Shown piece by piece: positions 19,170-52,785 of a stretch of DNA of 64,000 nucleotides. A program made the translations under genes and the position numbers. The stretch's first letter is position 1, and each line of letters opens with the position of its first letter. The stretch covers positions 2,805,001 to 2,869,000 of the forward strand of contig NC_087392.1 in NCBI RefSeq assembly GCF_963675165.1. The letters are read 5' to 3'. A model generated the notes under the pieces. That model did not search any database and was not told where the DNA came from. It saw nothing but the letters and a program-made list of their open reading frames with translations. This stretch comes from Halichondria panicea. Its lineage: Eukaryota; Porifera; Demospongiae; Suberitida; Halichondriidae.

Positions 19170-22100
19170 TTATTTTTTTGGCCTCGGTGGCAGCGGAATC
19201 TCGTTGTACTCAGATTCAATGGCAGGGGAAAACTCGCCAGCTGTAGGCAGCTCCTCATATAGAGATTCCTCAATGGGTCCTCCCATTGGTTCTATATAAA
19301 TGTCATCATCTGCAACAGCTGGCGGCTGGTGAACGGGACTAGTCGGAGAAAAGGATGCGCTCGAGAGGGATTTTTGTAAGGGGGTCTCAGGCAGAGGTGT
19401 TGCTGATCTCTTCTTTGGTACTGGTCTGGATGGAAGCTCTGGAGGCTTGTCAAATACACCTGAGAACCTTTTGCTGTCTCGGATAGGTTCATCTCTTGAT
19501 ATTCTCTTGTATTCGACGGCCTGTGCAACAGCTGTTTCAGTATCCTCATATAAATCTTCATCCAAAAGGGGGGTTTTGTCATCTGGTTTTGGAGGGAGGG
19601 GGGCTGGGCCACTGCTACTACTTGTTGGCATGGATTCAGCATCATCGTAGATCTCATCAATGTGTGTATTGTTGTGTTCGATGGGTGCTGGGGCCATTAT
19701 AGAATATTCTTCATCAGCCACAGCTCCAGGATTCATAAGCACTTCTTGCACATTGGCATCCATGCCTTCGTACACATCATCATCTTCCAGATGTGCTGAG
19801 GGAGATGGTGGTATGGGGGGAGGAGGTTTTGAGTCCTTTGTAGCTGGCTTGTACGTTACAGGTAATGGAGGAGGTTCCTCAGATTTTGCTGTTTTTCTTT
19901 CACTTTTTGGTGTAGGCACAGAATAACGTGGTTCTGACTGCATATCATTGTAGAGCAGGCCCGAATTTCGATCACTCTTCTTAAGGCTGTTCGAATTAGC
20001 CTCATTCATTGCTTCAGCAGCAGGAATGACTTCTGCCCCTCTGTTAGCGATGGCTCCTTCTCCATCTTCTAAAGAAGTGATCCTTGTGTCACGATATCCT
20101 AGCTCAATAGTATCGTCACCACCCTCGTCTACCTTGTAAGAATATCCACGTTTCCTTTGGTGCACTATGTATACTACCAGGACTACAAGAACAATCAGTA
20201 CAATGACAAGAACAATTATGAATAGGGCAATAGCACCTCCTTCAGCTGCCAATGCACTTCTCGACGGTATGCAATCTATTGACAAGGGACCTGTACAACC
20301 AATCTCACAAGTGCTGTGACAAATCTCACACTCGTTTGTATTATCATCAGCATAGAATGTGTAACTATTATTAACATTAGGACAGGCGTTCAAACATTCT
20401 CCATTCAGCAGTGGTATTGAGTTGTTACTTCCGGGAATAAGCCTGCAACCTTTGCAATCAAATGCTGTGGGACCATCACATCCCCCAGTGAGTGAGCAAG
20501 TGCTACTGCAAGGCTGACAAACCCTCACTGAATCCTCATAGAATGTCAGTCTTGTGGGGTCTGGGTTACATGTAGCCACACACTTCTTCCTTCCGTTTGG
20601 GAAAACAAAAGACGCACCCGTACAGTTTACACAATCGAATGGAGACAATCCACTGCATCCTTCCAAGCATTGGTTATTACAGGGGGCACACAAGTTACTT
20701 TCACCCTGAAGCAAATATAGTCTTGGGCAGTTCTCTAAGCAAGAATCTTGAGATATACCATCCATCAAGGTGATTGAAACAAACACATTTGAGCAATTTC
20801 TGCAATCGGTTGAGTTTGGCCCAACACATCCGTTTTCTATAGCGCACTGACTATCACATGGTACGCATCTTCGGAGTTCATCTTTGTATGTTCCAATTGG
20901 ACATTCATCGATACATGTCTGGTTTTGCGAGTTGAATACATTAGCACAGCCGCCACATTCTGTTGCACTTGGTCCAGAGCAGCTCAAATTGCGGTCACAC
21001 TGAGTATTACATTGATAGCAGAATATACCAGCAGTGCCATTTTCTACACCAACTCGCTGATACTCGTCTAATTCACATGCATCTCTGCAGAACCTTAGCT
21101 CACCCAATGTTGACACATTCGCACAGGAAGGCACACATTGTACATTATCGGTAGAGTTTCCTAGTTCAAGTGCAAAGTTTTGACAAGTGAAACAATCGGT
21201 CGAATTGGGTCCATCACACGTTAAGCACTCCGGATCACATGGTTGACAGTTGATAGAGTTTCCAAATTGTCCTTGAGGGCATTCATTTCTATATTCCCAG
21301 CCATTAACTACAACTGTGATTGCACCAGTATCGGATTCTAGTCGAACATCGCCAGTCATTTGTTGCCCATTGGCATTGAAACCGGCATTGAATTGTACAG
21401 CTGTGTCATTTGATAGAATATTTTCAGCAGGGATGGACACGAGACTAGCTGATGAAATTCGTGTACCGCCACCGAGCAAATTTGTACCAATAACCTCTAC
21501 TTGCGTGTTTCCAAAACCGCTTGGTGGTACAACTGCATCGATCGAGCTCTGATTAAGGAACAACCATTCGATATCTTGAAAAAGAATGCCTCCAAAGTTT
21601 GAGATCAAAGTAATATCGGATGTATAGAATGAAACTGGAGAATCAGGCTGTCCGACTCGAGCAATAATACTTGTGGAAGTGCTGCTGATAACACTCAACA
21701 TTACATCATCCATTAAAGCACCGCTCACACTATTTCCACCCGATAGCAATCTTTGCCCAGTGATAGTGACCATAGTCCCCCATTGTCCCTGGCGTGGCTG
21801 AATGTCTGTCACTGTTCCTTCTTCCACGTAACTCCAACCGTCCACCCTCCTCACATAGGCTCCAGTATCGGATATCAGCACAACGTCTCCAAGCTGAGCT
21901 CGTGGTATTGGATTGGCAGACATATTGGCAGACACTTGTACCGCATCATCAGTAGGCACTTGAGTAAAAGCAGCTTGGATTCCTGCCAGAAAGACAGCTT
22001 GAATACTACTTCCTCCACCAAGCAAGTTTTCACCCCTGATGGTCACTTGAGTTCCAGTTTGTCCTTGATCAGGAGTTACACTGAATATAGCTCCTTCTGA

Positions 22101-25100
22101 AATGTAAGTGAAGTTGAAGTCACTGACAGACATGGTGTTGAAATGGGAAATCATTGTCACTGGTCCACTGAAGGAGTGTGGAGCAGATGGGCGACCGGCT
22201 CTCACTAAAAAGGTGCTCGGGAAACCAGAACTCAAAGAGTCCACAATTCTCATTTCAATAGTGGCCTCTACACCAGCTAGAAGTATTCGACTAATTCCTT
22301 CTCCATTGTGAAAGAACGATCCGTCAATGGTCACTCTTGTTCCATTTTGGCCTATTTGTGGCATGGCGTTCATTACTCTCCCAGGTGTAAGATAGGTGTA
22401 GGCAACATTTGAAGACGATTCAGTTACAGCACCAGTATTAGAGATCACTTGAACATTGCCGGGGGATAGTGCTGTTGCAGTTTGGCCAGCAACTACTTGT
22501 ATCAAATTGTCAAAGTTGGTCACAATACTCTGTACAGGAACATTGTTTAGAAGGACTGTCTCAGCTCTGTCTCCACCACCAAAAAGATTTGTTCCTGAGA
22601 TCGTTACTATAGTACCCATTCCTCCTTCATCCGGACTTACAGAAGTGATTTCGCCAGGAACAATATACCTCCAGCTGTCAGGAATAGTATAATCTGCCCG
22701 TGTGTCTACCCTGTAGCTAATGTCACTAACATTTGTTTGCATTAGTGAATCACCTGCCGATGCGACTATCTCAAAATCAGTTGCAGTAATTATCGTGGCT
22801 GATACATTTCCAAATAGAATAGAGTCTACGGAGGACCCTCCAAGAAGAAGGCCTGTGCCATTTATAGACACTCTGGTTCCTCTTTGCCCTTGCTGTGGTC
22901 CAACAGAGTATACTCGAACCTGCACGTATGTGAAGCTAAACGGTAACTCAGAGGTGTATGTGGCACTATCTTGAGATACAATTACAATAGGGCCAACGAG
23001 AGCCTGTGACGTTGAATTCCGTTGCTCGGTGATCTGAACCTGCAATTCAGTATCTGTTTGAGATATGATTGTCGTTTCTATACTTGCCAGATATACGTTT
23101 GTCACAGTTAAGCCTCTTCCTGCTTGAAAGTTTTCTCCGTTGATGGTGACTACCGAGTTGAAGTAGCCTTGCATGTTTCCGGGTGAGATGGAAGAAATTT
23201 GCACAGGATCAACATACGTCCATGCATTGACAATTATCAACTGTGTTGAGTCCAAGAAATTAATTACAACATTTCCTGTTACAGGACTACTAGGATTTGT
23301 CGCATCAGTCTGTACGGTTACTGTGAGTGTACCAAGTGCGAAGGAGAAATCAATGACTGGATAGCCAGAAAACGTAACATTCTCTACTATTGGATATGGA
23401 GCATCTCCTGGGAGATTGATAGTCACAACAGTTCCGTTTTGCCCAGACGATGGTAACACAGCACCACTGCTCACTATGGGGTAATATCTCCAAGCATTGC
23501 CAGCTAGCCCGAATTGCCGCCCATCATTGGTTTCTATTACAATCGTTCCAAATTGGCCGTCAGCAGGTCCTGCTCCAGCGACGACAACAATCTCGTCATT
23601 TGTAGCATTGTCCAGTATACGATTAACTGGAATTCCAGCAAGGTATACTTGTGTAATATTAAGATCTCCAATGAGATTTCTCCCAGATATTGTAACCACT
23701 GTGTTTTCGGATCCAGCGATAGGAAATACTGACTCCACTATTCCAGGAGTTGCGTTGTATGTAAACGTAATCTGGGGATTGTACACGATTTCGCCTGTAT
23801 TGTAAACTATCTGCACAGGCAACTGCTCTCCAGCATTGTCCGTCGACTGATAAACTCCTGCAACAAATTCAATATACGAAGAGTTTATAATTCTCGCTTG
23901 TGAAGATCTAGTCCGACCAACAATCACCATCACACCAACGTCATTGGCCAAAAGAGGAAATAGGTTCATTCCTATGATTGAAATAGTGTCTCCTGAGAAA
24001 GCTGTGCTTGGAGTGATAGAGTCCATCTGACCAGGTGGAGAGTAGTTCCAAGCATTCTCAAGCTCCAAGAAGGAGCCAACGGATGATGTCACTCTTACGA
24101 AGTCATTTTGTGTAGCAATTGGGGAGATTCCGACACGAACAGTGATGTCATTGTTAGTACTGGTGACCACTGTTGCTGGAATGTTTCCAAACATTACCGA
24201 GGCAATGGTGGAGCCGTCACCTGGGAAGCCAAGCAAATTAATTCCAGATATCTGCACTATTGTGCCGTTATTTCCAGTCGATGGGGTTACTGTGTCTATT
24301 TCTGCAATATAGTATGTAAATGTTGTGTTATTATCACTCGTGACAACCACTCCTAGATTGGTAATAATTTCTGCCGGTCCTGTACCATTAGCAGGCATGC
24401 TCACAAGATCAGGAAAGAAACCTGCTCTGCATACGACAGTGTTTCTTGTGGACATTATTACGTCTGCAGGAATTCCAGCTAGTATGCACTGCTCAACTAT
24501 TCTTCCGGAAGATCCCAGTAAGCGCATTCCTCGTAAAGTAACATCAATACCTCTTTGACCAACAGAGGGTTCTATGTTTGAAATACTACCAAGCTCCCTG
24601 TATGTCCAGAAAAACAATTCAATGATTCGTGCTCCAGTATTGATAATAATCTCAACATCACCAATTGTATCAGGTCCGCCAGCTTGAGCTATGACAGTAA
24701 CGGTCTCGCCAGTAAATGATTGAACAATTGCTTCCACTCCAGCAAGAAGCACTCGTTCTACATTCATACCTCCTCCCAACAGATTGGTTCCTCTGATCGT
24801 CACACGGGTTCCTGTTGTTCCAGAGTTTGGTTCTAGCCTATCGATTTGCCCTTCCTGCAAATATTCGAATTGCATAGTCGAAGTGATGACAGCACCAGTA
24901 ACGAGGGTGATTTCAACAGGGCCTGACTGTAAGTTTGATGAAGCAGCCGCTACAGTGATCAGAGAATTACTTGCAGTTCCTTCCAAGTCAGCTTGCACAC
25001 CTGCTATTGTTACTTGCTGTACTTCTTCACTTCCTTGTAAGAGGTCAGTTCCCGTGATTGCTACTAAGGTACCAACTTGCCCGGAGGCAGGACTCACTGA

Positions 25101-28100
25101 TAGTATAACTCCTGGTCGTACAAGTGCGAAGCCATTTAGTCGACGTGCAATCGCTCCAGTATTACCTGTCAAAAGAATGTCTCCTGTAGATGGAAACAAT
25201 GTGGATGTTGCTGGATTGTCTACAATTTCGACCGTCACACTTTCGTCACTACTTAACACGACATTTGCGGAAACTCCAGCTAGCATTGCAGAGTCTATGG
25301 TAGTTCCTCCCCCAAGCAAATGTTCTCCTTCCATTACAACTCTTGTGCCTTTTTGCCCGACAGTTGGTGTGATGCTGTAAATTGCTCCTTCAGGAAGGTA
25401 CGTAAAGCTATTAGGCAATCTAGCCACAAGTCTCTGGGGATTCTCAATTGCCACATCAGCCATAAACATACCGGCTCTCTTTGCCCTCGGTACTCGTACA
25501 GTAATTCTGTTGCCGGTTATTAAACTAACTATTTCAGCATATTCATCATCGATTGTTGCCGTCAATCCTACTGCTACGTCGAATTGAGGAGATGCTGGTA
25601 CAATGATATCTATTTGAGTTCCTTCTCTTCCTGACGTTACACCGGGGAGAGAAATAGATAGCTCCACAAATCTGAAAAACATACCACTAACAAAAGATCC
25701 ATCACTTGCAGTTATCTCGATTTCAGCTAGCATTGGATTAACAGTTGGAGCAGTACCCACAATCACTGATATCTCTGTTACTGTTGAAGTTACAATTCGA
25801 GAAACTGAATTTCCACCTATTGTAACACTAGTTAACTGGGCATTGCTTGGAAATAAGGCTGATCCTCGAATTAGAACTCCAATCCCCTCAGCCCCCTCAT
25901 CAGGGCTAATATCAGAAATAGATCCTGACTGTTCGTATGTAAAGTTCGTTGTAGAGGTGATCGTAGCTCCTGTATTGATTGTCAACTGAATTGGTCCTTC
26001 ATCTAGATCTAGTCCTGGTCCAACCACAATTATAATTTGGGAATTATCGAACGAGTTGATTGTTGCAATAATTCCAGCAACCGTAATCAAGGTAATGGAA
26101 TCTCCATATCCAAGCAAGTTTTGTCCAAGAACAATTACCATAGTTCCCTCTCGACCAGTTGTAGGGGAAAAGCTGTCGATGATTCCAGAACTTCGATGAG
26201 TATAGTTACCTCCTAGAACAATGGCTCCAGTATCCGCCATTATGAATGCTTGGCTGGGAGTGGCAGTAATTGTACGAGTATCAATACTGCCCATGATAAC
26301 ATCAATCCTCGTATCAGATGAACTTGAAATTATAGTTTCCACACCATCCACTAAAACTTGGATTGCAGCACCCCCACCACCTAGTAGGTTAGTGCCAGTA
26401 AGAGTCACTCTAGTGCCGTCTTGGCCTGTCGGAGGCTGTATATCATTCACCATGCCTTGTACTAGGTATGTCCATATTGGAGCAGATTCCACAATTGACG
26501 AGGTGTCGGAAGTAATTGTTACTACTACAGGAGTGTTTTGGACAATGTCTGTATTGGTCTGGATACGTACTCTGATAGAAGTGTTGAGCGATTGAGCATG
26601 GTCTATGATTGCTGGAGTATTTCCAAACATGACACTTGTGATATTGTTTCCATAGCCGAATAAGTTCATGCCACTGATAGAAACTGTATTAAATAAAAGA
26701 GGGAAAACATGTCAAAATGTGATTGGAAAGGTCAGGGTTAGTGAAATATTCACGAAGTGAGATAAACCCATGCAAGGGGAGATTCATTCAATGCTGTGTG
26801 CACATATGGAAACCGTGAATAGAGACAAAACTAGAATCGTGCATCATACCACATTATTGATACGGTCAGGAATCATTAGTCATGTTATTTCCTTTCCTTC
26901 AACCTGGCAACTACTCATGAATTTCCACAAACAACACATTCATCACTATTATACGTACATACTAATCGCAAGCACTCACCAAATGTTCCACTTTGTCCCT
27001 CATTTGGCAATATTTGACTGATTGAACCTCGAACACGGAACTCAAATACATCAACTCCTCTCACTTCAGCTCCATTATCAGAGAATAAAACAATATCTGC
27101 TATACTCGGAATGCCATCAGAAGCTCTCAATGTAACTAGTGTGTCAGTCGATTCAACTAATGTCGCATCCAATCCACCGACAGTTGCACGATCGATGGAA
27201 GCTCCATAGCCGAATAGATTACTCCCTGTGATTGTTAAGAGAGTGCCAAACTGCCCAAATGTCGGAGAGACGTTGGCTATCTGACCAGGAGGCTCATAGG
27301 TCCATGTTTGAATGGTCGAGGAAACAGAATGCCTATCATCGAAAAGGTCTTCAACAGAGATTATAACTGCCCCTTGCAGACCATTTATCGTGTCATTTAC
27401 TGGCTCGGCAGCTCGTACAATGATTTCCGAATCGGATAAACTCATAATAGTGGCCATAACACCATTGAGCATAACAGTAGTTGTTGGCATGACATAACCA
27501 GACAAAAGAGCTGTTCCTCTAATAGTCACAATTGTTCCTGGCTGACCTCTCGACGGAATCACTTCTTGAATTTCGGCAAACGTGAAATTTGTTGTAGATT
27601 GCACAAGTGCTCCTGTATCTGCGACCACATCGACGACACCAGTTGTGGAAATACCAGTTGAAGATGGGACTTCTACAGTAATGCATTCATTGCCTGGTAA
27701 ACCAGAAAATGCAAAGGGTGTTGCCGAGACAACAGAGCTGGAAATTCCAGCGAGAGATACTTCTGAGATTGTTAGCCCACCTCCAAGTAGTCGACTGCCA
27801 CATAGAGTGACGTTACCTCCTTCTTGAACAGCTGGAGGAATAATATGAGAGATGAATCCATCGTCAAGGTGTGTCCAAATGTTTTCCAGAAAAGTATACG
27901 GTCCGTCGTAGTCGATACTATTTATATTTTGTGTTGTGTTGATGCTAATAGAAACTATTCCTGGCGATCCACTGTTTGCACTAAGTTCAATCATATTGTC
28001 ACTCGAGCTTACGATTTCAGCAGTCATTCCACCGATAGTCACTTGAGAGAGAGAGATAAAAGTTCCCCGTCCAAGTAAATTAGATCCAGTGATTACAATT

Positions 28101-29498
28101 CTAGTGCCCCTTTGTCCACGGGAAGGTGTTACAACAGCATTGCTAGTTTGTACGAAAAGAGCGAACCGCGTTGAGACCGCCAAAGTGAACATTTGATATT
28201 GTGTTGAAATTACAACATCAGCAGCATCATTTGTGGTAATAAACTCAGGAAATCGAGCAACAAAAGATATTCTCGTTGTCTCAAGGAGCTCCAATGAAAC
28301 GCCACCAACAATAACTTCGTACATAGTGTTGTTGTCGCCACATGAGCTTGGTAAGCATGTGCCCCGTGCTGTGGCAATAGTTGTACCTGGCTGAGCTTGG
28401 AGTACGACTGCAAGGCTAAGAACAACTGAAAGAGATTGGAAAGGGACATAGTTAGTTAGTGTGTCAGTAAAGTACTGTATAGCTGGTTATTTTTGCGGCA
28501 CGAATTTTCGAGGATTGACCCAGAAAGCACACGAATAATTATACCTCTCTACTGTAGGCGTGTGCATGGTTATTTGAACCTCTATCCTCAAAAAATTAGT
28601 TTTGGGCGATCCGTGAAAATTTTGTGCCCCAAAAATAACCCGCTATACGGTATTATGAGACAAAACGTTTGAAGAGCATGTTTCCTGCCAACTTGCACGT
28701 AGTTGCTAGTTTTAAGACAGAGTGGATATTATGACACACCGTGCATGGCATAATTATATCTGATATATAAATAACTATAATAACTATAATAACTAATAGT
28801 ATAAATAACTATCGCACCCACTTGATGCTGTCTCTGGGATATTATGACACACCGTGCATGGCATAATTATATATAAATAACTATAATAACTAATAGTATA
28901 AATAACTATCGCACCCACTTGATGCTGTCTCTGTCAACACAAACATACAGCTCCATGCAAATTTCCAATTTCACAATCAAGTGGTAATGCACAGAAAGAA
29001 TGCATAGAGATCTAGCTGAATTGGCCAAATCCATGGCAGACTGCAAAAATAACTCTAGAGCAGTAGCTAGACCTACAACTCACTCGTGTCATGTAGAGAA
29101 ATGGTCAGTTCCACAGTAGAACAAGATGAGTTTGCTGGAATTATCCTTACTCTTGCAGGATTGCCTCCAGAGCGAGATGGTAAGGGGGGATTAACAGATA
29201 GCCTGAAGGTTACTGTTCTTTCATCAATAATCATCATGCTAGCCAGTTGTATTCTTTCAAGAGACAAATCCAGCTCCACGATAATATCAACAACCTGGTC
29301 CAGTCTCTCTCCTGTGATGGTGTACAATGTGCTCAGAGACTCATCAGTTCCTGTTGTACCAGAGGGCGGGTCTAGGCTGCTCACCACTGGCTGCTCTACT
29401 GAGCTGCATGTTTGAGCATTCCCTGAGTCCAGAAGCAGAATTACGGCAACAATATAAAGTAGACTCTTCAGTATGTACAGCCTTGCTGTAGAAGCCAT
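19170..29498 (-). CDS. Giant IPT/TIG-repeat transmembrane receptor, ~3124 aa
   Basis: Three exons (29498-29084, 28425-26980, 26683-19170) sum to 9375 nt. The start MASTARLYILK leads straight into a signal peptide ending SGNAQ. About 24-25 IPT/TIG immunoglobulin-like domains follow, each opening with a P-x-x-G-x-x-GT-x-V-x-I-x-G-x-NLLGGG pattern (for example DIQPPTGQDGTRV, SVTPDQGQTGTQV). Next comes a cysteine-rich furin-like region (~21290-20270; CLTCDGPNSTDCFTC repeats with many N-glycosylation sites). A single ~22-residue Val/Ile/Leu membrane helix lies near 20165-20240, and the cytoplasmic tail is ~330 residues. The tail is rich in PxxP and tyrosine motifs (DDVYEGM, EEYSIM, DEIYDDA, DDIYIEP, SLYEELP, SEYNEIPLPPRPKK) and has no kinase domain. 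It is probably a cell-surface adhesion or recognition receptor signalling through SH2/SH3 proteins; the ligand is unknown. Confidence 0.88.
28475..28652. mobile_element. MITE of the TATAGCG family in a receptor intron
   Basis: Best-preserved copy: left end CTGTATAGCTGGTTATTTTTG, right end CAAAAATAACCCGCTATACGG, with inner arms GCACGAATTTTCG and GTGAAAATTTTGTGC. Length is ~178 bp and it is non-coding. Confidence 0.75.
28724..28933. repeat. Tandem duplication (113 + 97 bp) in a receptor intron
   Basis: Copy 1 (28724-28836) and copy 2 (28837-28933) both start GGATATTATGACACACCGTG and end ACTTGATGCTGTCTCTG. Copy 2 lacks part of the internal ATAACTATA microsatellite. The high identity implies a recent duplication. 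Confidence 0.88.
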
Positions 29499-39817: not shown

Positions 39818-42800
39818 ATGCTAAAGCCAGTGTCCATTCTCTGTGCTGCTCTATTGGTGGCTACAGCTGCGCATGGGCAAACCTGTCAGCCTGACCAGCA
39901 AAGGAGTGACTGCGGTTAGTAGAATCTCTGTGCATGTGATGGCTGACTCCATCCATCACATTGATGAACAAAATAATGTGCATGTCATGATGTATGTACT
40001 TCTGTACAGGCAAAGTTGGTACTACTCAGGCTCAGTGTGAGAGCAGTGGATGCTGCTGGAGCCCCAAAGATGTATGAATTATGACTATAACTTAAACTAT
40101 AATATTTTCTATTAATCTATAGCTTGTTTTGTATTCTATAGTGAATTGATCTGCACCCACTTATGCAGAATCAACCCTGGTGTTTCTACAAATCTGGTGG
40201 TCCAGTGAACAAGTTGTGTAATGCAGATACCTCACGAGTAGACTGTGGTATGTGTGCCTTAACTAGATCTAGCAAAGCACTCTGAAACATGTTTTCTCTG
40301 CCACTTTTGAATTAGGTAGCGTAAACGTAATGTTGGTAAGAATCAACCCTATAAGTGCACGCCTTTGTCGGTGTTCTTGCATGTGTTTGCAGGCAGAGAA
40401 GGCACAACTGAGGAGGATTGTCAAAACCATGGATGTTGTTGGCAACCCAAACAGGTTAGATCCATTTGAATTGAACCCGCTTACATTATTTTTATATACT
40501 GTCTCTATATAGGGTGCATCGTATTGCTTCTTCCCCAGTCCTGCGTATCTAGTGCAAAATGTGACGAGCACAGCAACTGGAGTCAAGGTGCACCGACCAC
40601 ATACTTCTTTGCGACCTAGCTAATCATCGTATTCACTATCTAGGTTTCCTTGAAACTGAGTGGAGCGAAGTACACTTCTTCTGGCAGAGCTGCCTCGCCT
40701 ATTTCCCTATTGGTGTTTGAACTCTGGCAAGAGACCACTGAAAGGCTGCATTTCAAGATTACTGACCCAAACAATAAACGTTGGGAAGTTCCAGAAAGGT
40801 TAAGCAACCAGAGCTTTTACCATTTATGTCTGATATAATCATCATTATAAAACTCACACAGTTTTCTACCTGTCCCTACTCCACCGTCTTCCCCTCCATC
40901 GGATACACTATATACCTATGTTGTGGCACCTGTTGGCAGCGAGTTCTCTCTAACTGTGACGAGGTCAGTTAACTCAGTATGCATTGTGTTGAGCATTGTT
41001 GTCATACTATATACGGTTAGGAAAAGTAACAAAGAGACAGTATTCAGCACCTCATCAGCAGGATTGCGTAAGAAATTATAATAATTATAATAATGCTTAA
41101 TTAGAATGTTGCATCACACTGCAGTATACTTCTCTGATCAATATCTGTCTATTGGAACAACTCTTCCGCAGAACTACAATCTGTATGGACTTGGAGAGCA
41201 CAAAGCAAAGCTCAGATTGGAGTATGTTATTATGAGTCAACGAAAGCATATCACTAGCTGTGTAACTTCTGTCTGTGTGCATAATTGTGTAGGAAGGCAA
41301 CATACACACTCTGGACTTATGATGTTGCTACACCCAAGGGTGTTAACTTATGTAAGAATCCTGTGTTTGTGCTATATATGCACTAAGTTGCTGTCATTTA
41401 CTTCAGATGGCTCCCATCCATTCTACCTCGACCTTCGAACTGATGGCACTGCCCACGGAGTGTTTCTCAAGAACAGCAATGGCATGGATATTGTGCTTGA
41501 AGACACATCACTGAATTATCGCGTGATTGGAGGTAGCTTACAATTTAAAGCTAGCAGTATTCTTATTAACCTTATAGGAGTGCTTGACTTCTACATCTTC
41601 CTTGGACCAAGCCCTGAGGCAGTGATCCAGCAGTACCAGGAGGTGATTGGACGACCACACATGCCTCCATACTGGGCTCTAGGTTTCCACCAGTGTCGCT
41701 ATGGGTACAATAATCTACAGGAGGTTATTGACGTTGTGAACAATTTTCATGCTAAAATGGTAAGTCATTGAGTCCGTGATGTTATCATTTATCATTGCAT
41801 ACGTTGTTAGATACCTCTGGATACTGCCTGGGTGGACATTGACTACATGGACAATGTAAGTTGCATGCATGGTAATGATTGTGGAGTCACTTATAATTAT
41901 TATTGCAGTACAAAGACTTTACTGTTGGCTCAAACTTTCCTGTGGATAAATTGCAAGCATTTGTGGCCCAACTTCACCAGAATGGACAGCATTTCGGTAT
42001 AACTATACACATGCCTTATAAATAATATCGAGTGTCGAATGCGTGGTTACAAGCCCTATTGTATTTTTAACTATTGCAAATTGCATGTGCATGCTCATTC
42101 TCTTTGCATAACTTACACTTCGCAATCGAAAAAACCTCGCATTCAAAACCTGGTATGTACAGTATTCCAATTTAATCAGTGACCTCCCACCCAGTTGTGA
42201 TTATTGATCCTGGAATCAGCAATGCCCAGAATTACGAGCCCTATAGCTACGGACTGAGTCAGGATGTGTTCATCAAGGACAGCAACAACAAAGTCTTTAT
42301 AGGGAAAGTTTGGCCTGGCTACACCGCTTTTCCGGACTTCCTAAACCTGAACACTCACAAATACTGGCAACATGAGGTGTGACAAAATTTCAGTACGGTT
42401 CACATGTAATCTACCCCCTAGCTGTGGTATACTTCTCAAGCCAACATTTCATGTATACATGCACCAGATCGGTGGTTTCTTGAAGCTTGTTCAAGTAGAT
42501 GGACTGTGGATTGACATGAATGAAGCAAGCAACTTTTGCAATGGAGCATGTGACTCGCAATCCACGTCTAAGAATGTCAGCAGGAAGGGTACTGCTGGGT
42601 TTGACCCTACTGATCCACCGTACCAGATTAACAACCAGAATTCCAAGCAACCTCTCAATATCAAGACATTGGATATGAATGCAATGCACTATGGAGGAGT
42701 GCCAGAATATAATGCACACAATCTCTACGGTGAGTGTACTTAATTACATAATCGCATGTTGTCTTATTATTCACTATGATTCGTACAGTGATTAGTCGCG

Positions 42801-45218
42801 TATCAGTAATTGCACGTCGTCAAGGCAGTAATTGCACGTCGTCATTAACGACGTGCAATTACTGCCTTGACGACCGCACGTTCGAATAACGGCCGCGGCA
42901 AATTTTTTTTACTGAAACTGCAGCTAAAAGTGTCCTTAAAACTGCATCACAAACGATTAACAAACAATAGTATGGCTACTCGTGCAATAAGGGATTAATA
43001 GCACTCATAACAAGCACTGGCATGCAAGGTTAATATCACTCGGCTACGCCTCGTGCAATTAGTATCCTTGCCATTGCTTGTTACTCGTGCTATTAATCCC
43101 GTATTGCACTCTTAGCCATACTATTAATAATATTATTGATTATGCCAAATATTAGGGTTTACCGAAGCCATAGCTACTTGCTCTGCCCTTGAGTCCTTAA
43201 GGCCAGGTGTTCGTTCCTTTGTTCTCTCTCGGTCCACGTTCCCTGGCTCAGGAGCACATACAGCCCACTGGACAGGTGACAATACGGCCACGTTTGAGGA
43301 CATGTACTGGAGCATTCCAGGTATCCTCAGCTTCCAGATGTTTGGTGTTCCACTGGTCGGCTCGGACATTTGTGGATTTATTGGTGAGTATGATTGTTGG
43401 ATATAATACATGCACTGATACACTCTGAACAAAATGTCCCCACTATTCCCCCTTTTTTGACTCTACGTAGAATTTCTAACAGTTTAATAATGTTTAATAA
43501 TGTCACAAAATGCTACCGGATCTGGAATAAATTGTGTATACACATGAAGGTAATACAAACGAGGAGCTATGTGGAAGGTGGATGGCACTGGGGTCTTTCT
43601 ATCCATTCTCGAGAAACCATAACACAAAGGGAGCAAATTCTCAGGAACCATACCGATGGGACTCTGTGGCAGCAATCAGTCGCAAGTACCTGGGTATCCG
43701 TTACTCCCTCCTTCCATACTACTACACACTGTACTACAAGGCCCATAGTCCAGTCGACAAAATAAATCCACCATCTGCCACTGTGCTAAGGCCATTGTTT
43801 TTCGAGTTCCCTCAGGACCAAAGCACGTACTCCATTGACTGGCAGTTCATGGTGGGAAAATCCTTGCTACTTAGCCCACAGCTGCAACAAGGTATCTATG
43901 GCAGTTCATGTATAATGTTGACTACTTTTTATGCTGAGCTGTTAAAACTTTGAAACTACTTTCTACCTTGTTTAGGGGGAACAAGTGTGAGTGCGTACTT
44001 CCCTGCTGGTCAGTGGTTTGATTGGAGTACTTTCCAACTATTCTCTGCTAAGGGCAAAGAAACAAAGACAATCAACACACCAATTGATCACCTACCAGTA
44101 CGTTAGGTCTTTGATAGCTCGTTTAGCACCACCTGCTATTACTTCTTGTGCAGATCCATGTTCGAGGAGGGTCAGTGATTCCTCTTCAAAATGGCACTGT
44201 TCTCAACACTACCATGGGAAGGATGCAAAACTTCTCCCTCCTGGTGTTCCTTGATAGCAGCATGGAAGCAGATGGCGATGTTTTCCTTGATGATGGCACG
44301 AGTCTTGATATAAAAGAGTAAGATTTTGACGTGTAAGATACGTGTGAATGTCATCTCGTCAGTGGGTAAACCTGGTTGACTAATTACTTAACACGGTGGT
44401 AGCTTAAATACAGAAATACTTATGTATGGTATGTACGTGATCAGAGATTTTCCACTTGTAGGTTCACGTATGTTCAGTATACTGTGACCAAGAACATGCT
44501 GACCAACAAAATGACTGGAACGGTATGTATGTACGTAGCTTGTTGGGTAATGCTTGTGTTATACAGGATTTCATACAGAAGGGGGGGGGGGGGCGCCCTG
44601 GGATTTCCCACCCCTAGCCGAAATCCCCCTAGATCTCTGAAAAATTAATGATGTCATAAAACAAAACGTTTGACTTTTCTCTTTAAAAATGTCTACAATC
44701 TCGACTAGACTATATAGTAAAATTTATGGTTTGAAGCACACAAAAAACCCAAATTGCACCTCAGATAACCATTCCTCCAAAAATTTTCCGGGGAAGGACC
44801 CCCAGACCCCCCTCAATTAAACGTTTCCCCTTACCAGCTAAAAATCCTGTATTAAACCCTGTGTTATGTATAGTGGTGCATGTGAACGTTATAGTCTTTT
44901 GCAATTTGTGGTACATGTATATATGCCAACAGCTTGTATAGTACAATCTAGGGTTGCCATGGACTCATTTCCTCTCAGAGGCTTCTGTAGACGCTGAAGT
45001 GTGTACCACCCCTTGTTAATTTACATATACAGGATTATGCATCAAAGGCACATCTTCCCCCACTGAGTAAGGTGACTATCACAGCAGTGTCCAGACCCAA
45101 CAAAGTGACTGTCAATGGAATGCAAGTGGGCTTTGCATACAACACTGACTCGCAGTCGTTGATTGTTACTGGCCTAAATATCATGATGGATGCAGCACTC
45201 AGTCTAGTCTGGGCCTAA
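39818..45218 (+). CDS. Secreted trefoil + GH31 alpha-glucosidase B (three trefoil-like units)
   Basis: Paralogue of gene A, 245 bp downstream in the same orientation. The start MLKPVSILCAALLVATAAHG is a signal peptide. Trefoil-like modules KVGTTQAQCESSGCCWSPKD, then QPWCFY, and REGTTEEDCQNHGCCW with a modified end (SYCFFPSPAYLV) come next. GH31 follows: [66 protein letters not shown], nucleophile DGLWIDMNEASNFC (~42505), GFDPTDPPYQINN, HNLYG, acid/base region HWTGDNTATFE and VGSDICGFI. RYSLLPYYYTLYYKAH and FPQDQSTYSIDWQFM lead into beta-rich C-terminal domains, ending LSLVWA. No in-frame stop was seen between the catalytic residues. One intron contains two fold-back repeats and another a GC-rich element. 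Confidence 0.9.
42816..42874. repeat. Perfect 27-bp-arm hairpin
   Basis: Arms at 42816-42842 and 42848-42874 are exactly complementary around the loop CATTA. The left arm is part of a 22-bp tandem duplication beginning CAGTAATTGCACGTCGTC. It lies in an intron of GH31 gene B. Confidence 0.92.
42966..43125. mobile_element. 160-bp fold-back MITE
   Basis: Ends AATAGTATGGCTACTCGTGC and GCACTCTTAGCCATACTATT are complementary, and the pairing continues inward (GGGATTAATAGCACT with CGTGCTATTAATCCC) almost to the centre. It may be flanked by a TTAA/ATTAA-like duplication. Non-coding, in an intron of gene B. Confidence 0.8.
44562..44858. mobile_element. Possible non-autonomous element with ATACAGGATTT ends
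   Basis: ATACAGGATTT at ~44562 and AAATCCTGTAT at ~44848 form inverted ends around a segment with a G13 tract and C-rich blocks, in an intron of GH31 gene B. No target duplication could be fixed. Confidence 0.4.
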
Positions 45219-45866
45219 TTTATATGCTCTAAAAAAAATTTGAGTGTTGTGTGAGCAAAAACGATTTTTAATTTTGTGCAGTTTATTTGTTTATAGGCTT
45301 AATGGAACATAAATTTGTACATGTGCTTTATTTTATTGTGTCAGCAAAGTATTTTATAGTGGATTGTTGTGCACTTTGTATCGCAGTTGTGACTAGCGCC
45401 AGCCGCCATGAGACTAGATTGGTAGAGTAGAACCAAAAAATGTGCTGTCAAGTTGAACTAGATTTCTGTAAGCCATTATTTTAGAAAAACAGCCACCGTT
45501 GAAATGTTCTGAGTCCTGACCAGAGAGACATGTATGATTATTTATGCAACCAAGCAATATAATATGAAGAAAATCTGACCCCTGACATAATTATATTCTG
45601 ACGATCAAAATAGGTAATGTAATCATTATGAGCGAAATGTCCAAATATCACATAAGCTTACTAACTTTAGAAAGGGAATCTTTTACAGTAGTCCCCCTCA
45701 TCTACATGTACGCATAGATTTTACAGTAGATCTAGACTAGTCATAGAGACAACTCAGCCATGTACTGTGTTAATTTCCACTCATGTATAATTATAATAAA
45801 AATGTATGGTAAAAAAGTAGTAAAATGTTGCGTAAAAATGTTATTAATAATATTGATTAAAAAATA
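45219..45866. other. Intergenic region between convergent genes
   Basis: AT-rich DNA with several AATAAA/ATTATA-like stretches that could serve as polyadenylation signals. No ORF, RNA gene or clear repeat was found here. Confidence 0.6.
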
Positions 45867-48800
45867 TTATAAGTCATCATCGGTTTCTTCAGTGTTTTCA
45901 CTAACGACAGCTATCGTTATGATAATCACATCTGTTGATTTAAAATGTTGTACCTGAGCATGAGAGAGAAATTGCTGGAAAAATCGAATACCTCTTCTTT
46001 CAATTGATTGTTCAACAGTCGGAATTACGCTAGCAGTAGAATTGGGGTCAACTAGCTTCACGACGATCCTAGTGACTGGCAATTTACTAGGTGGTTCGTC
46101 CAAACAATCAATGGAAAGGGTCATGTATTTTCCTGCATCACCCCCTATTCCGTGCGGGTGAAGCATTGCTTTGAAGCTTCTCTTGTAATGGTCATAGAAC
46201 TGTTCACTTTCAACTTTTGAATGTGACTGGGTCAACCATATTTGTAGTTTCTTAACCTTTATTTGCCAAAACAAAAGCCCTTTTCTTGAAAATTGTTTCA
46301 CCTCACGCCGACCTCGAGTTTTACGTACAGAACTATGAGAGTTTGCAGTAGTGTTGACTAATGAAGGACGGCAAATATGCATGTTTTCAGATTCAGGGGC
46401 GTGTAAGACCTCACAATGTCTTGAAGGAGGAGAGGGGAAATTGGAGGTTCCACCAGCTTCTACGTCTGAAAGCAATTGTAATATAGTCAGTGCATACCAG
46501 ATAACTTCTCAAAAATGACACTAGCCTCCTCGGGACAACTAAATCAAGACCCACACAAGATTCATAAGCCCAGATAAATTATTCTTTTCATCTCTTCGAT
46601 TCTTAGAAGGTAAAATGCCTTTATGGTAGAGTAGACATAGACAAGACAACGTTTGTTGACATTAAAAAGCTAGGTATACAATCATCTAACACAAAAATCA
46701 ATGCCTATTCTCAACTATATCTTTAGTACCTAAATTATTCTTTATCTATGCATGCAGGGCCTACACGAGAATTACACACACTGCGTCAGTATACCTACCT
46801 TCAAAGAACAGTTTTTTGTTCACTTGCTCCAACTCATGATTAGTCTCCAAGGGGACCAGACCAGCAGAGCCTGAACGACTAAAATTTCTTTCGTCACTTA
46901 TGTTGAATGAGGGTATTACAGGTGACACCCTGCCAGGGGTTACAGGTAGACTAGATGGTTTTCCTAAGTTTTTGGAGGCTAAAGCAAGCTTGAGGTTACT
47001 AGTCACAAGCTTAGCTGATGCAAGGGCATCTCTCAGGCAAGTTGGAAGATTTACAGAAGAGTTCGGAGTAGATTGAGCAGTGATAGAACGTTGTGTCTCA
47101 TGTGATACAGTAGAAATTTGTTTTACAAGGGATTCCACATTGCTTATGATACATTCAATAGAAAGTCGAAAGTCTTGATGCGACACACTCCGATGAACAG
47201 GTGGCATTGACGATGTTCGAATACCTATTGTAGTAGCACATTCGTGGACACCTATTTCACTAGGTATACTGTGAGATTGGTGAAGAGTTGGTTGTGTCAG
47301 ATCTCTCTCTATAACATCAACAGGAATATTCATAGAGTTGTAATGGTTTCCACGTGCTTGCCATCTTCGAGAATTTTCAGAACTCGATTTACTCCTCCTT
47401 AAATCACTTTCTTGAACTGATGTACATTCCAAACTTGATTGAAGTTCACATGATCCTGAATATTGGACAGAGACAATGAATAAAATCCTTGTTGTTGATA
47501 CGCAAGCATTGTGCCAAGGACCACGAAGCAGTGTCAACCCTCGCACACATACTAGAGTCGCCTACGATGTGCTAAACTTTGTTATCTGATAAATAGGCCT
47601 TGGTGGATTTTGTTTCCTATAAATTATAGCTTTTCCCCTTTTTATCGACTTAATATTATGCTGTATTAATTGTATCGTATACCGTATAGCGTAATTTTCG
47701 TGGGGTAAAATACTCGTTATTTTTGTGGGTAAGCTGACCTCCACAACATTTTCCCCACGAAAACGTAGGCTTTCTGCAGTGCAGGCAAACAACATTTTTT
47801 ACTCATGAAATCACGTACCACATACATCTAGTAGCCAGCTGTTTACTGACAGGAGTTTCTCATTAGTACCTATTTTTCTCTTCAAAGCCAATAAGGGGGT
47901 ATTCCCTATGCTCAACAGCACCTATTTTAGACTGGAGACCACGCCCTTTCTACTTGCGGGAAAGGGACTGGCCAAGTGAATATCAATGATTCGTCCCAAC
48001 GGAATATAAGTTACGTCATATGTGGCCTCGGTCCCAGGCTGGGAACGAAGCTACATCACATGCTGTAAGCTACACTTATCCTGTTCCCAGGCAGTTTTTT
48101 CTTATAATTATAGAACGGATGTTGAAAATATGGCCTGGTGTTGGGACGTGGTCAGGAACCGGAAACAAAACAAAAGCAGAGATTTTGCTTCCAGAGGCAT
48201 AGTACCCTAAAGTTTCCGTAAAAAATGTAATGTCTTATTGCTATCAATTGGGTAGTTGGGTGCTTTTGTTGGACTATGGTAGGACCAACGCTGCACTTGT
48301 CGACAGGAGTGTTGTTCTTCAAATGTGTAAAATCTCTGATCTTGTTTCCGGTTCCTAACCACGCCCTGTACCAGGCCTAGTTGGCAACCTCTGACCTAGT
48401 GTTATTTCAGCACACAGGGAAACCATTCCTCTTTCCCTGAACCACTTCCGCAAAATTTGGGACACACAATGAAGACTCGTTGATAGACACTTTCCGCAAG
48501 TAGAAAGGGCGTGATCTATTTGCTATTATAAGCAAAATCTGACAAGGCCTATCGATATATACAATCATAACGATAGTTTAACTTTACCAAGATATTCATC
48601 CACAAGCTTTGCACAGTCTTCCCTAGATATGTCCTTAAGAGCTTTCATGAGGCCATCCAGACTCTCTGGAGAGAACACACCCTTTCCTTCAAGAGCAATC
48701 AGTACTCGCAAAGAAAATGCAGTATCATATGTTGTACCTACTTCGTAATACCATGCTGGCAAGTCATACATGTACGCAAGCCGAAGAGCATTCTCCTTTC

Positions 48801-48966
48801 TTAGACGATCTGATATGTCTCCTACAAGTTTCCGATAACCTAAGTACCTGGTACTGGTTTCAATAACAGCCTGCCTTGGTAGTGTTTGTGATCCATATGA
48901 CGACTGAGCACCCAGGTTCACATCAATATTCGCCATGGATTGTTTTGGTAGCCTGTGTTCGACCAT
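45867..48966 (-). CDS. DED-linker-MATH (TRAF-C) adaptor protein, ~544 aa
   Basis: Three exons (48966-48588, 47455-46799, 46465-45867) sum to 1635 nt. Exon 1 encodes a six-helix death-effector-like domain: YRKLVGDISDRLRKENALRL, then LPAWYYE, SLRVLIALEGKGVFSPESLD and GLMKALKDISREDCAKLVDE. The pattern of LxxLLxxIxxxLxxEE..L and ALE-x-G-x-SPE-x-LD-x-L fits FADD/caspase-8-type DEDs. Exon 2 is a ~220-residue Ser-rich linker. Exon 3 is a MATH/TRAF-C domain: FKAMLHPHGIGGDAGKYMTL, the D-PP-SKLP turn, RGIRFFQQFLSHAQVQ and STDVIIITIAVV. No RING or TRAF zinc finger is seen. An alternative start is at 48936. The likely role is a scaffold joining death-fold and TRAF-type complexes in immunity or cell death (inference). 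Confidence 0.78.
47680..47766. mobile_element. MITE of the TATAGCG family in an intron of the DED-MATH gene
   Basis: Begins with ACCGTATAGCGTAATTTTCG. The internal right arm is CCCCACGAAAACG, and GTTATTTTTGTGGG is also present. Shortened copy, ~87 bp. Confidence 0.55.
47938..48515. mobile_element. Fold-back element with two blocks of inverted repeat
   Basis: Outer arms ACGCCCTTTCTACTTGCGG (~47941) and CCGCAAGTAGAAAGGGCGT (~48494) are perfect inverses. A second, ~48-bp inner pair begins GGCCTGGT (~48133, with GGAACCGGAAACA inside it) and is matched on the other side near 48340-48380 by TGTTTCCGGTTCC. The element is about 578 bp. No target duplication could be defined. It lies in the first intron of the DED-MATH gene. 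Confidence 0.75.
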
Positions 48967-49234
48967 AGATAGTAGTATGGTTCGACTTACTAACGTACTT
49001 AACTTGTGGTCTTGATCTTGGGGATGATGATTTTACTATGTTGGGCGTGGCCAACACACCAAGCTGTAAACACCTTTGACCCTGGCCGATTTACAAGAGC
49101 TACCGTATTGATCTTTACCCTATACTCTGCACACAGGCTAGGGCCGGCCAGGGGTCTCCATCACGTACCATAGTTATTGGTTATTGCATGGTTATAGTAT
49201 CTATGCTCTAGCTATAGATACGAAGATTTAATAT
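48967..49234. promoter_or_regulatory. Putative bidirectional promoter, DED-MATH / ZC4H2
   Basis: 268 bp separate two divergent start codons. No TATA box can be assigned with confidence. Confidence 0.45.
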
Positions 49235-50440
49235 ATGGAGACACCAGAAAAAGATGGTCAGGATGGGGGTGATCAAGTCAGACTCCTCATGGGATTAGTT
49301 TCTCTCAAAGAAATCAGGTGAGTGTTGAGCAGATTTCATCACTCTCTTTACCGTGTGTTCTGTATACATGTAGAGATCATCAACATACTTTGCAGCAGAT
49401 GCGTGGCAAACTTGAGCGTTGCTATGGCGACTACACAGAATGCAGAGATTTTGCCATGCAATGTGGTGCTGAGCTCAGCAAGTTGGAAGGTGAAAGGTTG
49501 TGTCTGCAGAATCGACAGCAACAAATTGAGGCCGACATGATCCAGGTGCTTTACGTCTATTATCTATGTTTATGTTAAATATTATGTGGGGTACATGTAC
49601 TTTATTTTTTTTATGAATGATAATCACATATCCTGTGACGTCTATATTTCTTTGTTTAGATGACAGACCTAAAAAAGGAACTAGAAACTGCATCTACCCA
49701 CTGTGTAATGTCTGCACCCACTGAACTGTACAAAGTATTAGAAGAGCAGGTAATTTTCATTATTAAATTTTGTTCGATTCTGGCATTGATAGTGATACAC
49801 TGACATAACAGGTGAATGAGAAGAGAAAAACACTGGGTATGGAGATGTTACCTGAATGTGAAGCCTTCTCAAAGCTTTCCAGCGATTCTATGTATGTACG
49901 CTATACATCATGTACATGTATGTATACTAGCTATACCGTATAAAACACCTTTGCGAATGAAACCCTTTGTGATCTAACTATAGCCTTTTGGCATGGATTG
50001 TGTGTCATATATACCAGTACTAGTATAGGTCAAGTGATCAACACTCGCAAAACATTCGGTAGGTAGTACCATATTAATCACACAGTTTCCACCACATCGC
50101 TTCAATTATATTATTTTCTGTCTCTAATACTACATTGTTAGTGTACTATGATCATCCACAGAATAACATCGTCTTCTAAACAAAAGAGACACTTTCGCCA
50201 AAGTAATTCACATGGCAACAGCAGAGCACACCCCTATTCCAGCACAGCGGTCAAAGCAGGTCCTTCTTACAAGCAGTGCCCTAAATGTGATCAGCTTATC
50301 CCCAGGAATGCAGTAATTTGCTCAAACTGCCACTCTTTATGCAGTCGACCTGGTCATGTGAGTCTTCTAAAGTTTGATTACATCATAATTAAGACAACTA
50401 TTTTTCTTCCATTTAGAGTACTGGCAAGAATCGATTGTGA
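49235..50440 (+). CDS. ZC4H2: ZC4H2 zinc-finger protein
   Basis: C4H2 zinc-finger protein; in vertebrates a nuclear/cytoplasmic factor for neural development that works with RNF220. The start METPEKDGQDGG is followed by LLMGLVSLKEIR, matching the LESIKEIR region near the vertebrate N-terminus. A coiled-coil middle spans several short exons (QMRGKLERCYGDYTECRD, SKLEGERLCLQNRQQQIEAD, MTDLKKELE). VNEKRKTLGMEMLPE corresponds to the vertebrate ALRMTLGLQRLPD segment. The zinc finger is CPKCDQLIPRNAVICSNCHS with SRPGH after it. A last tiny exon gives STGKNRL and TGA at 50438. The basic tail is shorter than in vertebrates. It is convergent with the CNG channel, stops only ~56 bp apart, so the 3' UTRs very likely overlap. 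Confidence 0.88.
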
Positions 50441-50495: not shown

Positions 50496-52439
50496 TTAAA
50501 ATTGAGATGAAAGTTTTCGTATTCTCTCTGTGATGCTGTACAGTTTGGAGGATGCTGTGGGAGGTGGTTCATCACTATTGGGTACTTTGTAATTGTGTGA
50601 TGCTTTAACTTCTTGTAGTACTTGAGTGAGTAGTTCTTCTATATGATTCATTCGGGTGTGTAAATGACTTACTCTATCTGAAACTGTTTGTGCTTGCAAT
50701 GTTGTAGAGTAATCACTTATATTACTAGTGGTTGAAGAAGTTGAAAACCTTCGTTCGGGTAATAAATCTAATGAGCTTCCTTCAGCTTTGATTTCATCGT
50801 CATTATCATGGTACGAGTTTTCTTTGATTGAGACATCTTGACTCAATCTCTTCATACCTTTAGCGATTAGTGTCTCCATTGTTTCGGGGTAGTCCTTGAG
50901 TACATCCAGTAAGTCGCTCTGCGAGAGGCAAAGAAGAGTGGAAAATCCAACTGAACGAACAAACGCTGTTCTTCGACGATGGCTCTTGCCTGTACCGAGG
51001 TTTAATACGCTTATTTCACCAAAGTATTCTCCATGTATCATCTCTTTCAGCACCAATCCATCTTCCTGTGCCATCACCTCGAGCTTCCCGATATTAACAA
51101 TGTACATCTCTCTTCCCACATCTCCCTTCCTACAAACATATTCCCCAGGAGAATAGACTTGGGTCCTCAATCTGACAACTAACTCCCAGAGTAACCCTGG
51201 TTCACACACTGAGAAGAAATCGACCTTTTTAAGAGTTTCGAAGTGGACATAAATACCTATTTCTGCTTTAAGCTTATCTGGAAGGGTATTTAGGACATGC
51301 TGATCATCTACTGGGTGGCCGTGTGTCCAAAGATAGTCAAACCATTTAATCACTTTTTCTCGCAAATGTTCAGGCACACTCGTCTTTTTCATGTAGACTT
51401 TAATATTGTCCATTTTGGTCTGGAATTTTGCTTTGTTTTTCTGTGTGTTTGCAATGATATTTCCTACATTCCCCACAAGTGTAGCAAACATTAGGATTCC
51501 GATTAAATAGTCGAATATGACAAATATGTACTCTACATTTGTTTGAGGGTGGGGTAGGTCTCCAATAGTGGTCAGAGTGAGAGTAGACCAGTACAGAGAA
51601 TAGATGTACTGCCGAGAGACCTCACCCCAGTGGGCAGATTCTGTTGTGTTCCAGGCTGGATAAACCCAGCTGTCAGATCCAAAGCCTATCCATTGACTGA
51701 GGCTATAGTAGATGCATGCATTCCAATGAATGATTGCAACCATGTTGTGTAGGAGGAACACAACACGTGAAACATTTGGAAAGTGAGAGCGGCTCTCAGT
51801 ACGATCAAAAACACTTTTCAGCCTGTAGAGTTTTAACAGTTTGGGTAAATGCAAGTACAGAGGTGGACAAGACAATTTCATTAGTATGTAAATCCAGTCC
51901 ATTGGAATAGCTGAGATTACATCAATATAGAACTGCCAGCTTTGAGTGTAGCGGTTCATCATGTTATCAGTATCATCTTCCAGAATGCCGTCTTTCAAAT
52001 AGCTTGTTCGGCTCTGAATCATTACATCAGTCACATAGATGATGCCACAAAGAAAGTCTAGCAACCACCAAACATACCAAATTTTTTCAACACCAGGAAA
52101 GGAAATTCTTGCTATTATAGACCAAGTGAAATAGACTACTGCCACCCCTACAACCAGCAACCAGTTGTAGGTCTTGGTACCAGTTGGATCAAGGAAAAAT
52201 GCAGGATTAGATCTAGATCTCGATGGTTTTTGGTGGTTTTGATGAGACTTGCTGAATAGATCTTTGGAGCTCAGAGGGCTGTATTTTGTAAAAAATTCTT
52301 CCCTTTGCTTGGACTTACTAGCACTGAACTTTCTTCTGTGCACAGAGCTAGAACTTTGTGGCCCTGGAGCATCCCCTGGAGGGCTGCTGTTCACTGGACT
52401 GCTCACAGAAGGTGGCATCATGCACGTAGTATTGTCCAT
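50496..52439 (-). CDS. Cyclic-nucleotide-gated cation channel, intronless, 647 aa
   Basis: CNG-family (CNGA-like) plasma-membrane channel opened by cAMP/cGMP. It is one uninterrupted exon. The first ~75 residues are basic and Ser/Pro-rich, followed by S1-S6. S4 is reduced in charge (PKLLKLYRLKSVFDRTESR). The pore helix is YSLYWSTLTLTTIGDLPHP, where vertebrate CNGA channels have TTIGETPPP. S6 is YLIGILMFATLVGNVGNIIA. The C-linker follows (MKKTSVPEHLREKVIKWFDY). The cyclic-nucleotide-binding domain has YSPGEYVCRKGDVGREMYIV, GEYFGEISVLNLGTG with the phosphate-cassette FGEIS, and RRRTAFVRSVGFSTLLCLS. A C-terminal helix (VSHLHTRMNHIEELLTQVLQ) could be a multimerisation coiled coil. The absence of introns beside intron-rich neighbours suggests an old retrocopy. 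Confidence 0.95.
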   Translation of the reverse strand: MDNTTCMMPPSVSSPVNSSPPGDAPGPQSSSSVHRRKFSASKSKQREEFFTKYSPLSSKDLFSKSHQNHQKPSRSRSNPAFFLDPTGTKTYNWLLVVGVAVVYFTWSIIARISFPGVEKIWYVWWLLDFLCGIIYVTDVMIQSRTSYLKDGILEDDTDNMMNRYTQSWQFYIDVISAIPMDWIYILMKLSCPPLYLHLPKLLKLYRLKSVFDRTESRSHFPNVSRVVFLLHNMVAIIHWNACIYYSLSQWIGFGSDSWVYPAWNTTESAHWGEVSRQYIYSLYWSTLTLTTIGDLPHPQTNVEYIFVIFDYLIGILMFATLVGNVGNIIANTQKNKAKFQTKMDNIKVYMKKTSVPEHLREKVIKWFDYLWTHGHPVDDQHVLNTLPDKLKAEIGIYVHFETLKKVDFFSVCEPGLLWELVVRLRTQVYSPGEYVCRKGDVGREMYIVNIGKLEVMAQEDGLVLKEMIHGEYFGEISVLNLGTGKSHRRRTAFVRSVGFSTLLCLSQSDLLDVLKDYPETMETLIAKGMKRLSQDVSIKENSYHDNDDEIKAEGSSLDLLPERRFSTSSTTSNISDYSTTLQAQTVSDRVSHLHTRMNHIEELLTQVLQEVKASHNYKVPNSDEPPPTASSKLYSITERIRKLSSQF

Positions 52440-52785
52440 CTTTTTTAATTCAGTTGTTAACTGTACTAGTAACTTGATGTTCTGTTTTGTTTGGCTCCAA
52501 ACTTTTTTATGCAGCAGTGAGCTGACTCCCCCGCTTTTACAATAATTGTTTCAAGACCGATTTGTCTCTAAAATAACGCTAGGACAACAACGTTGAGGTA
52601 GCCTCGACCCCAGGCCGCACTTCATCAGTTGAAGTAAGTATAATTTATAATTATATAATTATTGTAATGATGAGCTACAAAATAAGTAAAAGTAAAAAGG
52701 TTGATAATATAAAAAAACAGTTAGTTACGTTCTAGGTGTCCCTCGATAACCTGGACCTCGATTGGCTCAAGGAGTACATCCTTAG

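Follow-up and report, generated by a model that had tools for sequence, protein, structure and literature searches.

The window analysed here is a stretch of 64,000 nucleotides from the demosponge Halichondria panicea (C16:2805001-2869000 of a 131-Mb genome in 39 contigs). On its minus strand lies a gene of three coding exons which, spliced in frame across two GT-AG introns, both of phase 1, encode a protein of 544 amino acids (aa) with a death effector domain (DED) near the N-terminus and a MATH domain near the C-terminus (Table 1). We infer this splice model from the window sequence and from a second gene on contig C14, described below; it agrees with the initial annotation, which had the three exons joined in frame by a Ser-rich linker. 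The stop-to-stop frames that hold exons 1, 2 and 3 are 155, 266 and 213 codons long, and the chance of such frames is about 9e-5, 1e-7 and 3e-6, respectively, as estimated per frame from base composition alone, without correction for how many frames were inspected. The linker (residues 128-412, reaching into exon 3) consists of Ser and Thr to 22.8%.

Table 1. Features of the DED-MATH gene in the window and of its counterpart on contig C14 (window positions unless a contig is named).
Feature	Coordinates	Strand	Remarks
Exon 1 (coding part)	48588..48966	-	First ATG 48966, second in-frame ATG 48936; donor GTAAAG from 48587, phase 1
Exon 2	46799..47455	-	Bulk of the Ser-rich linker; both ends in phase 1; no Pfam domain
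Exon 3	45867..46465	-	End of linker, MATH domain and stop codon (45869-45867)
Death effector domain	48592..48837	-	Residues 44-125 of the 544-aa protein
MATH domain	45912..46229	-	Pfam match, residues 425-530
Two AATAAA polyadenylation-like signals	45282..45337 (from 45337 and from 45287)	-	3' of the stop codon; consensus match only
C14 gene, three exons	C14:4346628-4346919, 4347162-4347872, 4347974-4348542		Rebuilt; 523 aa, both introns phase 1

Both domain calls rest on several agreeing tests, because both Pfam scores lie below the curated cut-offs. The DED of exon 1 is matched by its Pfam profile with E 4e-5 for the domain alone (24.2 bits; curated cut-off 35.9), and the Pfam Death profile scores only 0.15 on the same region. 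A PDB search with the single DED sequence found cFLIP only weakly (E 0.12); with a two-sequence DED profile the same protein is matched at E 5.2e-7. The predicted fold of exon 1 is a six-helix death fold whose nearest matches are DEDs together with one apparent death domain that ties with them, and chains of FADD, PEA-15 and cFLIP are found among its matches. The DED-like bundle of the initial annotation is borne out by profile as a DED and by predicted fold as a death fold. At the position of the E/D-RxDL motif, taken here minus its acidic partner residue, the window DED has REDC and the C14 DED has RKDL. A plasmid search with exon 1 produced no matches.

Exon 3 is matched by Pfam MATH_2 with E 1.8e-4 (22.2 bits; cut-off 32), and none of ten reversed or shuffled copies, used as a control, was matched by MATH. 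Its predicted model contains eight strands and only short helices within the domain, as in the MATH β-sandwich; it is nearest to MATH domains, and only MATH chains appear among the best matches listed. The top structural matches are SPOP and TRAF, with SPOP ahead by a small margin of about two Z units. Exon 3 alone matched the PDB at chance level (best E 0.23), and a two-sequence exon 3 profile gave no PDB matches. In an informal comparison by eye, the residues of the SPOP groove did not look conserved in exon 3. The MATH assignment made initially holds by Pfam MATH_2 and by predicted fold, and is not supported by the MATH profiles of the sponge's own genome (see below).

The strongest evidence for the architecture, in our view, comes from the C14 gene. 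When exon 3 was searched against the genome, it matched C14:4348243-4348512 (E 0.10), and the genome DED family search matched C14:4346682-4346900 (E 4.1e-9); the two matches lie 1.3 kb apart on one strand, with a Ser-rich open frame in between. The DED of the rebuilt gene is above the Pfam cut-off (E 7.7e-11), and the exon 3 domains of the two genes are identical in 34 of 91 columns (E 2e-7, single comparison). A second gene of equal design means that the pairing of DED and MATH is no assembly accident, and we take this architecture for a real gene family with at least two members. No further copies of exon 3 rose above noise beyond the window and C14 genes in the six-frame open frames of 76 loci, most of them 3.1-3.6 kb in size; genome searches with the two exon 3 queries returned two matches and one match.

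The reading that we favour, with a probability of about 0.6, is that of a RING-less animal adaptor that bridges DED assemblies and a client bound by its MATH domain. The DED would join DED assemblies, for which candidates exist in the genome, since tandem DEDs lie close to a caspase exon at two or more loci; the MATH domain would bind short peptides of another protein via the usual MATH groove; and the flexible linker would allow one molecule to span both. The adaptor might in this way recruit a MATH-bound client, such as a receptor tail or a regulator, to a caspase-8-type platform, or do the reverse, and would have no ubiquitin ligase activity of its own. A more specific proposal, in which a small and old sponge family of such adaptors passes caspase-8-type DED assemblies straight to MATH-bound partners of the ubiquitin or TRAF pathways, appears doubtful. 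Vertebrates make such a link via TRADD and TRAF2, which are separate proteins.

SPOP is a MATH-BTB protein, and TRAFs combine RING, zinc fingers, a coiled coil and MATH; TRAF trimers arise from the coiled coil. Both resemble the sponge protein in the MATH fold, as the best structural matches of exon 3, and differ from it in carrying BTB or RING and zinc fingers, none of which was found by Pfam in the 544 aa (RING and TRAF zinc fingers with E up to 10), and in that the N-terminal partner here is a DED. There is likewise no Pfam match to a caspase, so the initial statement that the protein contains no RING, zinc finger or caspase agrees with these scans. A TRAF-type coiled coil before the MATH domain was not seen, by eye only. 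The initial annotation had also proposed that a single adaptor may directly connect death-fold assemblies with TRAF trimers; the single DED-MATH protein stands, and direct contact with TRAF trimers finds no support here, given the missing RING and zinc fingers, the coiled coil not seen by eye and a fold slightly nearer to SPOP.

Several results weigh against the favoured reading. The wiring claim is weaker than the architecture, contact with TRAFs being without support here, and the Pfam scores of both window domains stay under the curated cut-offs. The window DED is closer to DEDs of a cluster on contig C8 (E 7e-11 and 1e-8) than to the C14 DED (E 0.011, among six proteins), and the C14 DED is not among the 12 matches of the genome search with the window DED; an exchange of the first exon, or faster divergence of the C14 gene, may explain this. 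Two hidden Markov models were built from MATH domains of the same genome, one from 19 TRAF-like domains (from 30 loci, of which the other 11 were interrupted by a stop in the reading frame used) and one from 23 more varied domains; among the matches listed, neither model ranks the window domain or the C14 domain above the best of 4000 shuffles. Aligning the same own-genome MATH alignments by hhalign gave probabilities of 0.2% and 2.6%, a result that speaks against the MATH assignment, though the test is weak because the query alignment had just two sequences.

The failure of the own-genome MATH profiles on exon 3 would also be expected if the C-terminal domain were an RRM-like TRADD-N and the protein a DED-TRADD-N of DEDD2 type, a known architecture: passages of PMC8195603 describe DED followed by TRADD-N in cnidarians, Crassostrea and Branchiostoma, and Death-like domains with TRADD-N in Amphimedon. 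We regard this as very improbable, since Pfam MATH_2 matches the window exon 3, the model has eight strands with short helices only and its listed matches are all MATH chains, and no TRADD-N model was matched with E up to 10 in scans of the window protein, of C14 exon 2 and of exon 3 in either copy. NCOA6_TRADD-N was silent both in the genome and in the controls, so its silence is no proof of absence. It is similarly hard to believe that exon 1 and exons 2-3 are two neighbouring genes, or that the gene is a pseudogene; both domains score under the Pfam cut-offs, but the splice joins are in frame at consensus splice sites, the open frames are long, and the C14 gene has an equal three-exon, phase 1-1 layout.

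A weightier competitor, though in our judgement still unlikely, is a decoy that would use its one DED to cap or dilute DED filaments in the manner of PEA-15- or FLIP-type proteins, which are thought to do so, with the MATH domain serving for placement only. A single DED without an effector domain, the presence of PEA-15 and cFLIP among the DED fold matches, and REDC instead of RxDL in the window copy all speak for it. Against this, a MATH-type exon 3 is retained in both copies, which suggests a client, and nothing in the sequence separates promotion of caspase activation from its inhibition.

With an E limit of 1, DED is matched 32 times in the genome, and with a limit of 0.001, caspase 33 times; of 309 MATH candidates, at least 150 are scored matches. 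Tandem DEDs less than about 2 kb from a caspase exon on one strand are seen at C10:859830-862894 and C10:2921362-2923384 (loci L016, L017, L020), both caspase-8-like layouts. At C8:3343776-3345521 (-) (L006), a DED exon is followed on the same strand, after about 0.8 kb, by a Pkinase match (E 2.3e-37), and the two possibly encode a DED-kinase protein. The cluster at C8:614-633 kb (L005, L008, L009, L012, L037 and others) comprises eight DED matches, and a number of the closest relatives of the window DED belong to it; by eye, some of its frames extend into helical stretches and have Ser/Pro-rich neighbours with Tyr motifs. Dense runs of MATH matches occur at C12:6.21-6.59 Mb, C3:7.30-7.42 Mb and C14:2.31-2.51 Mb.

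Within the window, a coiled-coil-like gene that includes a zinc ribbon frame (49230-50300, +, limits by eye; UPF0547, E 4.3e-4, below cut-off) stands head to head with the DED-MATH gene, and the two may share a promoter in the short gap between them. Tail to tail with it lies a glycosyl hydrolase family 31 gene (41094-45218, +; E 3.7e-9 for frame 41094-41771, end by eye). Farther away are a single-exon open frame of 684 aa (50496-52550, -) that by eye resembles cyclic-nucleotide-gated or HCN-type channels, and open frames of 2513 and 523 aa (19170-28486, -) with IPT/TIG-like repeats followed by Cys-rich repeats and a membrane segment, also by eye.

The theme of death-fold and MATH domains in sponges is already in print, because passages of Kaur et al. 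2021 (PMC8195603) list MATH among the variable C-terminal domains of Amphimedon Death-like/TRADD-N proteins. Most of these proteins, according to the same passages, start with one to three Death-like domains plus TRADD-N, and the paper also states that MATH expansions are lacking in organisms with TRADD-N expansions. They share with the window protein a sponge chain that has both a death-fold and a MATH domain; they differ in that TRADD-N follows the death-fold domains, whereas Pfam, with the linkers not folded, finds TRADD-N neither in the window protein nor in exon 2 of the C14 gene. FADD, DEDD, DEDD2 and PEA-15 are single-DED proteins (PMC4558505) and are similar in combining one DED with a non-catalytic remainder; unlike in the window protein, MATH goes unmentioned for them in passages of that source. 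The whole words TRAF and MATH are absent from PMC2575513, PMC2246300 and PMC12909245 (main text of each), and a DED-MATH or DED-TRAF pairing was not found by name in the searched literature, which leaves out most subscription journals and preprints. A DED-MATH protein in which no TRADD-N is detected, whose Ser-rich linker is long and whose two-intron layout is common to both genes, is a variant that we have not found described in that literature.

Mammals, to our knowledge, keep death-fold assembly and MATH peptide binding in separate proteins. The size of the sponge protein suits standard cell-line tests; if transcripts and binding bear the favoured reading out, the protein would be a natural bridge that unites these two signalling modules in a single chain, and would show the extent to which early animals mixed these parts.
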